This document shows positions 3,368 through 62,210 of a stretch of 64,000 nt of DNA, piece after piece. A program made the translations under genes and the position numbers. Below the pieces are notes generated by a model. It ran no database searches. It was not told where the DNA came from and saw only the letters and a program-made list of their open reading frames with translations. Within the stretch, counting starts at the first letter, position 1. Every line of letters starts with the position of its first letter. The DNA comes from Ischnura elegans (lineage: Eukaryota; Arthropoda; Insecta; Odonata; Coenagrionidae), in assembly GCF_921293095.1 (NCBI RefSeq), contig NC_060252.1, positions 78,698,866-78,762,865 on the forward strand, given 5' to 3'.

Positions 3368-3578
3368 TACCGCGGCGATGTTCATGATGAGTGAAGTTCT
3401 CCGGGTACTGCAGCCGCGTTCGTTTTTTACATGTGATCACCGTTTCGAAAACCATCTAGCTTTCGTCTTCAGGTCGAAGGTGGGAACTTCACCGCTTCAT
3501 ATAGTGCTTTCCGTCGTTCCGTTGAACTCTGATTGGCTAGGACTCTCTTCCACGCTTTACTCATGGGGTAGCCATGGT

Positions 3579-4209
3579 CAGGGGCGGATTCAGCATCAAA
3601 TTTGGAGGGGTCATGACCTGTGTCTGGGGAAGATGAAATACTCCCTAATAGAGAGTGTCGATCTCCTGCGTAAAATTCTGTGCAGGGAGTGCCACCCTCT
3701 ATGGTAGATACATCTCAAATTTCTCTCACGGGACTTTTTCTGGGACTTGCAGTGGCGAAGCGACGGGGGGGGGGGGGGTTGGGGGATAAAAACCCCTCCC
3801 AGAGCACAAAGAAATTTTTAAGTTTAATCTATTTTACTTAATTGGATTGATATTACTAATAGAATAGTGTAAGGATCAATAAAATATCCCCCAGAAAGCC
3901 GTAAAATTCACGATTTTGAACCATTTATACTAAAATTCCGCAATTTATTAATCTCGCACCTACCGATTATCTTGGTAGGTATGCCATACCCCCACACACC
4001 CCGGTATTATTTCCACCAAACCCCCCCCCCCCCCCAGCCTTAATTCCTAGCTCCGCCCCAGGGGACTTTTGGGACATTCATTTGCATATACACTTCCTGT
4101 ACTCCTTCACAAGGATACAAAACCTATTAAACTAATAAAACTTTTAAAAATTTGATAAAATTTGGGGAGGGATCATGACCCCTGCGATCCCCCCCCGAAT
4201 CCGCCACTG
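3579..4209. mobile_element. Non-autonomous hAT element, 631 bp, with perfect 8-bp target duplication
   Basis: The ends are CAGGGGCGGATTCAGC and, read inward from the other side, CAGTGGCGGATTCGGG. Such CAGNGGCGGAT inverted repeats are typical of hAT transposons. An exact 8-bp duplication GCCATGGT flanks it at 3571-3578 and 4210-4217, as expected for hAT. It has no transposase and contains a second hAT-like insertion at 3750-4061. Confidence 0.85.
3750..4061. mobile_element. hAT-like MITE (~310 bp) nested inside the 3579-4209 element
   Basis: Terminal inverted repeats CAGTGGCGAAG and CTGGGGCGGAG (right end read inward), long G and C runs just inside each end, and an 8-bp flank GGGACTTG (3742-3749) against GGGACTTT (4062-4069), one mismatch. 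Related copies lie at 24669-24960 and 41949-42245. Confidence 0.75.
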
Positions 4210-4534
4210 GCCATGGTCTGTATTGAAGTTTTCCATCTTGTGGATTTTAAAGGCGGCGAAATAACGAGCTTCTCCCCTTTGGCCTGAAGACGAAAGCGAG
4301 ATGGCTTCCGAAATTGTTGCCACTCGTAACAGACGAACGCGACTGGAGTACCCGGAAAACAGCACTCATCACCCAACAGCTCTGCTTCCCTTGCTGCAGC
4401 GGCGAGAAAGACATAAGACGATAGCACAATAGACTTCATCGCAGCTTAATTATGCGAAGAGTTATAAAATATATAAACCTCTAGTACTTAAAAAAAGGTG
4501 CGGCAATATTGTAATGAAGAGGCATACACGGGTC

Positions 4535-17461: not shown

Positions 17462-17672
17462 GCAGAGAAGTTTCTCGGGTTTTCCACCGGTTGATTTCGT
17501 CCATGTCTCCCGACGTTTCGAGCAGCGACTTGCTGATCATCCTCAGGGGATCTTCCGAAACCTTCCGGAAAGAATTCGGAAGATCCCTTGAGGTTGATTA
17601 GCAAGTCTCTGCTCGAAACGTCGGGAGACATGGAGAACATCAACCGGTGGAAAACCCGGGAAACTTTTCTGC
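17462..17672. mobile_element. Foldback element with two opposed hammerhead-like cores
   Basis: Two arms of about 100 bp are nearly perfect reverse complements around 17563-17567. The left arm carries a minus-strand core (17516-17546: CTGAGGA, stem, GAAA, then CGTC). The right arm carries a plus-strand core (17588-17618) whose first block has decayed to TTGAGGT while GAAACGTCGGGAGAC is intact. The outermost words GTTTTCCACCGGTTGAT and their inverse are conserved. No target duplication was identified. Confidence 0.7.
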
Positions 17673-43199: not shown

Positions 43200-43804
43200 C
43201 TGATGTCCTCAGGAGAAAATGGAAAGGCCTTAAAGATATGTTCAGGAAGGAATTAAAGAAACAAGTAACAATAGGATTTAAATCGGGTCTGCATACATCT
43301 CGCTGGGTTTTCTACGATTCCCTGATGTTCTTATCTAGCCATATGAAGACAAGGGATGGAAGTGGTCATCTTTCCAGCATAGATCAACAAATCGAGCCAG
43401 ATGAAACCGAAGTTGCTGGATTAAGTCTACCAGCTGGAGTACAAAACATTCCTGAGCTGAACCTTCCAAACCCATCCACGACAGAGGATGGAGATGGACA
43501 ACATGAAGGTGATTCGTCACCCGCATCGTCGGACGAACAATGTACCTCAAAGGACAGAAGCCGAAAGGCTAAACGGTTTCGACATGACGACGCATCTAAA
43601 TTAGTGGACTTAGAGAAGAAGTTATCGATTCTGAAAGGATGTTGTAATCAAGGTAAAAGTGATGATTACCATTTCTTGATGAGTTTCCTGCCCCACGTTG
43701 AGAATTTACCATTGGAGAAAAAGATGATGTTCCGAGTTAAAATGCAGGAACTACTTTATACCACTTTGTTCTTAAGTGACAGTGCTGAAAAGAATGACGA
43801 TTGA
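43200..43804 (+). CDS. MADF-BESS protein, exon 2 (rest of MADF domain, linker, BESS motif)
   Basis: Encodes residues 45-245. It begins ADVLRRKWKGLKDMFRKEL, the C-terminal MADF helix with its conserved R-W pair, followed by WVFYDSLMFLSSHM (end of MADF near residue 92). A charged, Ser/Glu-rich linker has a basic cluster KDRSRKAKRFR (about 162-172) that could be a nuclear localisation signal. The BESS motif lies at about 201-231: FLMSFLPHVENLPLEKKMMF then KMQELLY, with the expected pattern of two amphipathic helices. Stop TGA at 43802-43804. An ATTAAA at 44159 is the first poly(A)-like signal. No internal stops or frameshifts, so the gene appears intact. Confidence 0.88.
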
Positions 43805-45565: not shown

Positions 45566-45577
45566 CGAGAAGTGATT

Positions 45578-45811
45578 CTGAACAATACAAAGTTATGGTA
45601 CTTTTACACGATTTATTCACTACGAACGGTTTCGTTGCAGAGGCGACATCATCAGGTACAGAAATCGTTATAGTTAATCGTTCTGCACCTGATGATGTCG
45701 CCTCTGCAACGAAACCGGTCGTATTGAATAAATCGTGTGAAAGAGTACCATAACTTTTTATTGTTCAGAATGGATTTTCACAAAGTAAAGCCAGAAACAA
45801 TCGAGTTTATT
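45578..45811 (+). mobile_element. Foldback element with two opposed hammerhead-like cores, 11-bp target duplication
   Basis: The best preserved family member. The left arm (45578-45666) and right arm (about 45676-45770) are about 95% inverse matches. The minus core (45630-45655) and plus core (45689-45714) both read CTGATGA, T, stem GTCGC/GCAAC with loop CTCT, GAAA. The plus copy continues CCGGTC, a self-complementary word ending in a GTC triplet, as at hammerhead cleavage sites. A 41-nt unpaired tail (TTTTCACAAAGTAAAGCC) follows the right arm. GAGAAGTGATT flanks the element at 45567-45577 and 45812-45822. Confidence 0.8.
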
Positions 45812-45883
45812 GAGAAGTGATTCATTTTCTGGTGCGCTGCTACCAAACATTCACTGCATTTAACAAATATATAAAACATATAT

Positions 45884-61950: not shown

Positions 61951-61966
61951 AACCATTTATTTAAGT

Positions 61967-62197
61967 GATATCTGGTGATTTTTCCGGGTATTATTCCGCG
62001 TTTATCCATTTTGTAGGACAATATTTCGTCAACGTTCCAGTTGGCTTCCTCAGGTCCACCTCAGGTCACTTCAGTGGACCTGAAGAAGCCATCTGGAACG
62101 TTGGCGAAATATTGTCCTACAAAATGGATAAACGCGGAAGAATACCCGGAAAAATCACCAGATACCATCATAATCTCCGCGGAAGCCTACTTGGAAA
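61967..62197 (+). mobile_element. Foldback element with two opposed hammerhead-like cores, 13-bp target duplication
   Basis: Arms 61969-62063 and 62070-62165 are near-perfect inverse copies (TCTGGTGATTTTTCCGGGTA and its inverse). The minus core (62024-62053) reads CTGAGGA and the plus core (62080-62109) CTGAAGA; each is followed by a GCCA/TGGC-type stem and GAAATATTGTC(C) or similar. The right tail CATAATCTCCGCGGAAGCC is unpaired. CATTTATTTAAGT flanks the element at 61954-61966 and 62198-62210. Confidence 0.8.
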
Positions 62198-62210
62198 CAT
62201 TTATTTAAGT

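Follow-up and report, generated by a model that had tools for sequence, protein, structure and literature searches.

The closest described counterparts of the locus reported here are found among Penelope-like elements (PLEs) and animal retrozymes. Penelope elements of the rotifer Adineta vaga (Pen2a_Av and others) have an open reading frame (ORF) bounded by pLTRs, with an inverted pLTR adjacent, and one inverted pLTR may carry a 31-bp tail; according to the available part of the account, pLTR and tail together can hold the first 22 codons, target-site duplications (TSDs) are 8-10 bp long, and copies lie mostly in head-to-head order (PMC3846280). In Poseidon of Anolis carolinensis (PAc), both target strands are cut, with AT-rich targets, and the purified Anolis PLE extends both strands, reverse transcription (RT) beginning internally, at one site on either side of the tail. 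Cleavage by the Anolis hammerhead needs the PLE protein, and no reads end at its site (PMC11167929). There is no settled account of PLE integration: a paper of 2013 put forward self-priming, as far as its available text goes (PMC3846280), and two-site, two-strand extension was reported in vitro in 2024 (PMC11167929). A search of the available literature for twin priming in Penelope-like elements found no paper.

The window, meaning the whole 64,000-nucleotide stretch of Ischnura elegans DNA that was analysed (78698866-78762865 of contig NC_060252.1, within a 1.72-Gb genome), contains a short foldback that very probably consists of two 5'-truncated copies of the pLTR and ORF start of an endonuclease-bearing Penelope-like retrotransposon, set head to head and made by the route proposed below. 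Its parts are as follows.

45567..45578, no strand: left copy of the target-site duplication GAGAAGTGATTC, 12 bp (sequence comparison, shuffles)
45579..45663, minus: left, inverted PLE end copy, tail-less; its outer end lies at the inner RT start site (TTGTTCA)
45624..45655, minus: hammerhead-like core CTGATGA..GAAA..CCGTTC, with its predicted cut falling between 45624 and 45623
45664..45680, no strand: central junction, unlike in nearly all copies compared
45681..45767, plus: right, sense PLE end copy
45689..45720, plus: hammerhead-like core CTGATGA-T-GTCGC-CTCT-GCAAC-GAAA-CCGGTC; predicted cut after 45720
45768..45811, plus: tail; the PLE frame begins in it, at the ATG of 45770, with the codons MDFHKVKPETIEFI
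45812..45823, no strand: right copy of the target-site duplication GAGAAGTGATTC

The element occupies 45579-45811 between the two copies of GAGAAGTGATTC, a word that occurs in the window only at 45567-45578 and 45812-45823 and in none of 100 shuffles. A first-pass annotation, made from the letters of the sequence, had described a foldback of 234 bp flanked by an 11-bp duplication; the compact foldback and the duplication on both sides stand, with their lengths corrected to 233 bp and 12 bp. The foldback shape is borne out by inverted arms of 63 nt (45601-45663/45681-45743) that are 94% complementary, outside which lies an additional 52-nt complementary pair (79%). The left arm is the inverse of the right arm up to TTGTTCA, and beyond this motif about 44 nt more, ending GAGTTTATT, are present on the right side only. 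This tail corresponds to the first 14 codons of the PLE frame, and the window copy holds PLE codons 1-14 only. The two opposed hammerhead-like cores noted in the first pass, with CCGGTC in the plus copy, are both matched by a simple core descriptor and show the order CUGANGA - stem II - GAAA - NUH. The plus core is composed of CTGATGA (45689-45695), an extra T (45696), GTCGC-CTCT-GCAAC (45697-45710), GAAA (45711-45714) and CCGGTC (45715-45720), and the minus core has CTGATGA (45655-45649), GAAA (45633-45630) and CCGTTC instead of CCGGTC (45629-45624). Stem II carries a C-A mismatch in both cores and is preceded by one extra nucleotide.

Taken alone, the window element is ordinary. The first-pass annotation knew of no description of such an arrangement, but published work on PLEs already describes pLTRs paired in inverse orientation, a tail on one side, TSDs and hammerheads in the pLTR. 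In the available text on Adineta Penelope, the same combination of inverted pLTR, one-sided tail with first codons, TSD and head-to-head order is found (PMC3846280). The differences, within the limits of that text, concern abundance, duplication length and the ribozyme motif: the Adineta elements are low-copy, whereas hundreds of tails are present here and many copies are reduced to two ends; TSDs of 8-10 bp contrast with shared flank words of mostly 12-13 nt; and the word hammerhead is absent from the available account, whereas each arm here has a core (PMC3846280). PAc likewise has a hammerhead at the pLTR/ORF junction and a tail between RT start sites; its start sites in vitro are equal between strands, whereas the ends here, in rows chosen by exact tail, are asymmetric (PMC11167929). 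A further difference from PAc is that the long frame here reads from the tail ATG.

The connection with coding PLEs is provided by longer copies. One of these (L109) has coding sequence upstream of the hammerhead, in a 169-aa frame with GIYRLKCSDCETCYIGQTG and the motifs GIY and CYIGQTG; its match to Pfam GIY-YIG (PF01541), in the right place, reaches 18.9 bits (E 0.0019), below the gathering cut-off of 22.6. The frame matches 150 scored places, from 11595 first-look candidates, some of which have open frames of 817-845 aa. A full-size relative (L121) has an 824-aa ORF, followed by the same hammerhead region, with an RVT_1 (PF00078) match of 47.7 bits, over the cut-off of 29.6, and a GIY-YIG (PF01541) match of 17.7 bits that lies in the right place and below the cut-off of 22.6. 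In another locus (L122), the end of the EN frame, the hammerhead region and the ORF start stand in line, with an inverted unit alongside; here the hammerhead region directly precedes ATG-MDFHKVKPETIKFI, within a long RT frame, and ATGGATTTTCACAAAG, which follows the region, shares the reading frame of the long RT ORF. This in-frame ORF start next to the hammerhead region identifies the tail as the beginning of the PLE protein. A frame opened by the ATG within the core is closed by a stop after 10 codons, and the long frame starts at the tail ATG. The hint of a Penelope-like affinity in the first-pass annotation was right; longer copies grade into coding PLE and the tail is the start of the PLE ORF. 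The PLE traits found comprise an RT ORF (L121), a pLTR/ORF arrangement with an inverted pLTR (L122), an ORF-start tail, for which 30-40 nt is expected, and a TSD of variable length, expected near 10 bp and 12 bp long in the window.

The first long GIY-YIG frame considered as parent (L118) was rejected, being another PLE-like frame with no core in the 4.3 kb fetched. It represents a separate family of PLE-like elements; its open frame is 840 aa long and has a PF01541 match, the RT having been judged by eye alone, and the CTGATGA core is absent from those 4.3 kb.

Related units are present elsewhere in the genome. From 1676 first-look candidates, a search at the DNA level scored 40 places, the window among them, with 80 matches in total, palindromic copies being counted on each strand; when the window was aligned with the 39 others, arms and tail aligned in nearly all, the flanks were unrelated and the centre varied. 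This abundance, together with the small size, the TSDs and the cores on both strands, would suit a compact self-contained unit, retrozyme-like or MITE-like, that moves as one foldback bearing a pair of opposed ribozymes, which is close to the complete compact mobile unit of the first-pass annotation. The available text on animal non-LTR retrozymes describes small elements with a type I hammerhead and PLEs as suspected helper, in likeness to the present copies; those are, however, direct tandem repeats with circular RNAs, whereas here inverted pairs merge into coding PLE (PMC7229834). Small non-coding tandem direct repeats, a retrozyme trait, were not what was found in this family, which consists of inverted pairs grading into a coding PLE. 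Because copies grade into the full PLE and the tail is ORF sequence, the window element is better described as the truncated end of a full PLE, and the variation of centres and arm lengths described below argues against the compact unit.

The 39-nt tail pattern, allowing up to three mismatches, occurs 459+441 times in the genome and 0 times in the control. The arm ends were studied in 71 exact-tail occurrences with flanks, 23 of the 100 exact tails listed lying outside this set. In eight near-identical loci the tail is a passenger in another repeat; seven were removed and one (L059) was kept, leaving 64 rows in which L065 is counted twice. Both L059 and L065 were left out of the arm-length, flank-word and cut-site counts, and all eight passenger loci and L065 were left out of the typing and centre comparisons. 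In the passenger loci themselves (L059, L073, L080, L093, L094, L097, L105, L106), a PLE end fragment lies within a larger near-identical repeat and was apparently carried by another element.

The outer ends of the arms are site-specific. A left arm was recognised in 54 of the 64 tail rows, with none found within 750 bp in the other 10; 50 of these 54 left arms have their outer end between unit +41 and +51. The right arm ends at unit +85 to +93 in all 64 rows, a value partly forced because the rows were selected by the exact 39-nt tail, and it begins about 40 nt further on than the RT start site of the left arm. Target-site duplication is general: flank words of at least 9 nt are shared in 39/51 loci versus 20/1000 mismatched pairings, and words of at least 11 nt in 31/51 versus 5/1000, the commonest lengths being 12-13 nt. 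Among the 149 EN-domain (GIY-YIG) matches listed, all 16 pairs of neighbours within 10 kb are head-to-head and none is tandem or tail-to-tail, two of the 16 looking like one duplicated stretch; longer copies are thus arranged likewise.

The inner ends and centres behave differently from copy to copy. A short stretch directly upstream of the hammerhead, from -86 to -45, holds about half of the inner arm ends (57/112); arm lengths range from a few nt to more than 900 nt. Both arms were present in 76 of the 101 sequences considered for the centre comparison, which was made on the 51 in which both cores could be recognised; centres were more than 85% alike in 3 of 1275 pairs, these three being short and mostly composed of arm ends. 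Since nearly all centres are unlike, every insertion creates its own palindrome and the foldback is not itself mobile, contrary to the first-pass idea of the palindrome as the inherited, mobile unit. Differing centres, the spread of arm lengths, the gradation into full PLE and transcripts that are predicted to be hairpins make the compact self-contained unit highly implausible.

A stronger rival is self-priming, in which a cDNA or antisense transcript would fold back at a near-palindrome upstream of the hammerhead and be copied into its own inverse. For rotifer Penelope elements the idea goes back to palindromes seen where inverted copies join, according to the available part of that account (PMC3846280), and some junctions here do lie in ATAAC/GTTAT near-palindromes (for example L084 and L101); rare variants common to both arms, discussed below, also count in its favour. 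Such copy-back, however, should include the tail and reach the flank, whereas the left arm stops at +41 to +51 in nearly all rows. Most centres (41/54 rows) contain extra bases, with 34 having 1-60 extra nt and 7 more than that, against 10 overlaps and 3 flush joins, and just 4/51 copies have both arms ending at the same inner position. Self-priming is accordingly judged improbable. The long centre of L085 looks like a later nested insertion.

The preferred reading is a head-to-head PLE pair produced by priming from both cut ends of the target. A read-through PLE RNA, comprising the EN end, the hammerhead region and the ORF start, would be bound by the PLE protein, and the enzyme would make staggered cuts, about 12 bp apart, in the two strands of the target. 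Each cut end would then prime the copying of the RNA into cDNA, one at an outer site within the ORF start and giving the tail, the other about 40 nt upstream and giving the tail-less arm. Both cDNAs would pass the hammerhead, about half ending no more than about 40 nt past it, and their ends would be linked through filler bases or short overlaps, yielding a unique palindrome with a TSD. The anatomy, the link to a coding PLE, the TSDs, the site-specific outer ends and the unique centres are observed; strand cutting, simultaneous priming, joining and the use of a single RNA are what we infer. Counting against this reading are the 10 tail rows without a recognised left arm, the equal start sites of the two strands with the Anolis enzyme in vitro, the GIY-YIG scores below the Pfam cut-off, and, as described below, the two tails of L065 and the mosaic arm of L052. 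A variant in which the tail-bearing cDNA trails and is hence shorter found no clear support, and the arm lengths do not tell which cDNA leads: in 51 loci the left arm was longer in 26, equal in 4 and shorter than the right in 21 (sign test P 0.56, Wilcoxon P 0.07).

The use of one template is suggested by comparison of the arms. In all 71 typed copies (49 A, 22 B) the closest subfamily is the same for the left and the right arm, typing having scored both arms against 91-nt references with 30 of 101 sequences, L066 among them, dropped for low score. Arm identity within copies exceeds that of re-paired arms, clearly in subfamily A (0/2000 shuffles reach the value) and less clearly in B (34/2000). 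Non-consensus bases common to both arms number 42 versus 11.1 expected in A and 2 versus 0.6 in B; in A, two subfamily positions account for 26 of the 42, and without these positions 15 are shared versus 2.57 expected. One source RNA, whether through two initiations on one RNA or through one source, would be the simplest reading of these sequences; gene conversion between arms could also produce shared variants. Arms from two subfamilies were considered and rejected: 5/51 rows appeared mixed by best BLAST reference, but 0/71 were mixed with the 91-nt references. By eye, L049, L054 and L095 have short right arms called A through the shared tail, and the mixed call of L066 may reflect the short A reference. 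One arm of L052 is an A/B mosaic by eye and is nevertheless typed A/A, which indicates that typing can hide mosaics.

The asymmetry of the tails can be estimated roughly. L065, with tails on both sides, is the sole two-tailed row among the tail-selected rows, so tails would be rare if they arose independently on the two sides. A rough estimate, in which the stringencies of the counts differ, points the other way, with about half of subfamily A arm ends tailed; it is based on 900 tails from both subfamilies, 36/64 rows called A, which overcounts A because short B arms are called A, and 824 subfamily A arm ends (control 2).

The hammerhead-like cores were weighed against chance. The descriptor gave 39 matches in 100 shuffles of the window, with at least one match in 34/100, and a single core alone is only moderately improbable by these counts; the inverse core pair together with the 39 other scored genomic copies places the cores beyond chance. 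Throughout the window the descriptor, which itself requires pairing, matches 11 places (9 outside the element) versus 0.39 per shuffle, and their stem sequences differ. Rfam models leave the cores without a match: at gathering score there were 0 matches in the window, and at E up to 10 there were 13, mostly microRNA precursor models on the long hairpin, with no hammerhead among them. A search of the whole genome with RF00163 also gave no match, and the control genomes were likewise without any match.

The silence of Rfam would fit cores that arose by chance or have decayed and do not act as ribozymes, with the PLE end alone being of importance. The stem II mismatch in both window arms and the CCGTTC of the left arm point the same way, as does the dispensability of the Anolis hammerhead for insertion in vitro (PMC11167929). 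Folding predictions are divided on this question. The monomers of subfamilies A and B are predicted to form stem II and an interrupted stem I, with three core bases paired with CGG; the predicted B dimer is not a hammerhead, and the predicted single-arm folds of the window lack one, its copies being weakened by the C-A mismatch. The predicted A dimer, on the other hand, keeps the core free, and the self-complementary ACCGGU would form stem III between the strands. Also against decay are the excess of descriptor matches with differing stems in the window, subject to the pairing built into the descriptor, and, by eye, the identity of 43 nt over the core in subfamilies A and B, the following ~45 nt differing at several places. 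The available part of a review, moreover, reports hammerhead motifs in all available PLE sequences (PMC6155905). That the cores arose by chance or have lost their function seems unlikely, if less so than self-priming.

The first-pass annotation also held that the transcript of either strand would contain one active core. In a full-length transcript this is unlikely because of the long hairpin: the whole element is predicted to fold at -131.0 kcal/mol versus -76.9 kcal/mol with the core held free, a difference of 54 kcal/mol, and the hairpin should trap both cores. For the source RNA, a weak hint of template cutting may be read from the arm ends. Among 33 arms ending between -44 and +36, 4 stop exactly at the predicted cut; they come from three loci, L051 (both arms), L077 and L100. 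The chance of such a coincidence is about 0.0007 if ends are uniform and independent, weaker if L051 is counted once, with the cut site fixed beforehand and the range chosen after the data were seen. The hammerhead is proposed to be part of the life cycle of the RNA and a passenger in the window copy.

The window contains other foldbacks. A second one of 231 bp, with the same plan and a different sequence, lies at 61967-62197 (61954-62210 including flanks):

61966-62059/62074-62167: arms of the second foldback, with cores at 62053 (minus) and 62080 (plus), by core descriptor

It has a 13-bp TSD, CATTTATTTAAGT, and a tail on the right side only, ending at 62197, into which the frame MDKRGRIPGKITRYHHNLRGSLLG continues. 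An older head-to-head core pair (3385-4371) has cores at 3472(-)/4284(+) and arms of 102 nt that are 79% complementary; a further related core lies at 528(+). Other descriptor matches are found at 17546(-), 22323(-), 30973(-) and 56179(+), shuffles giving 0.39 per window. At 43238-43804 a 188-aa ORF contains a BESS motif (44 bits), a motif known from insect proteins.

The part of this account that goes beyond published anatomy is the putative mechanism, with two fixed starts, one template and some templates cut. As a general rule, PLE insertion may involve two initiations on one RNA, one per strand, at fixed sites 40 nt apart, with one tail per insertion and some templates cut by the hammerhead in vivo; this generalisation is tentative and on balance doubtful. 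The genome is well suited to such questions, as it holds about 900 tail matches, many with their own junction, and counting arm ends, tails and centres can separate integration models. If the rule is true, double initiation and template cutting would have left a natural record in this genome, in the form of its hundreds of foldbacks.
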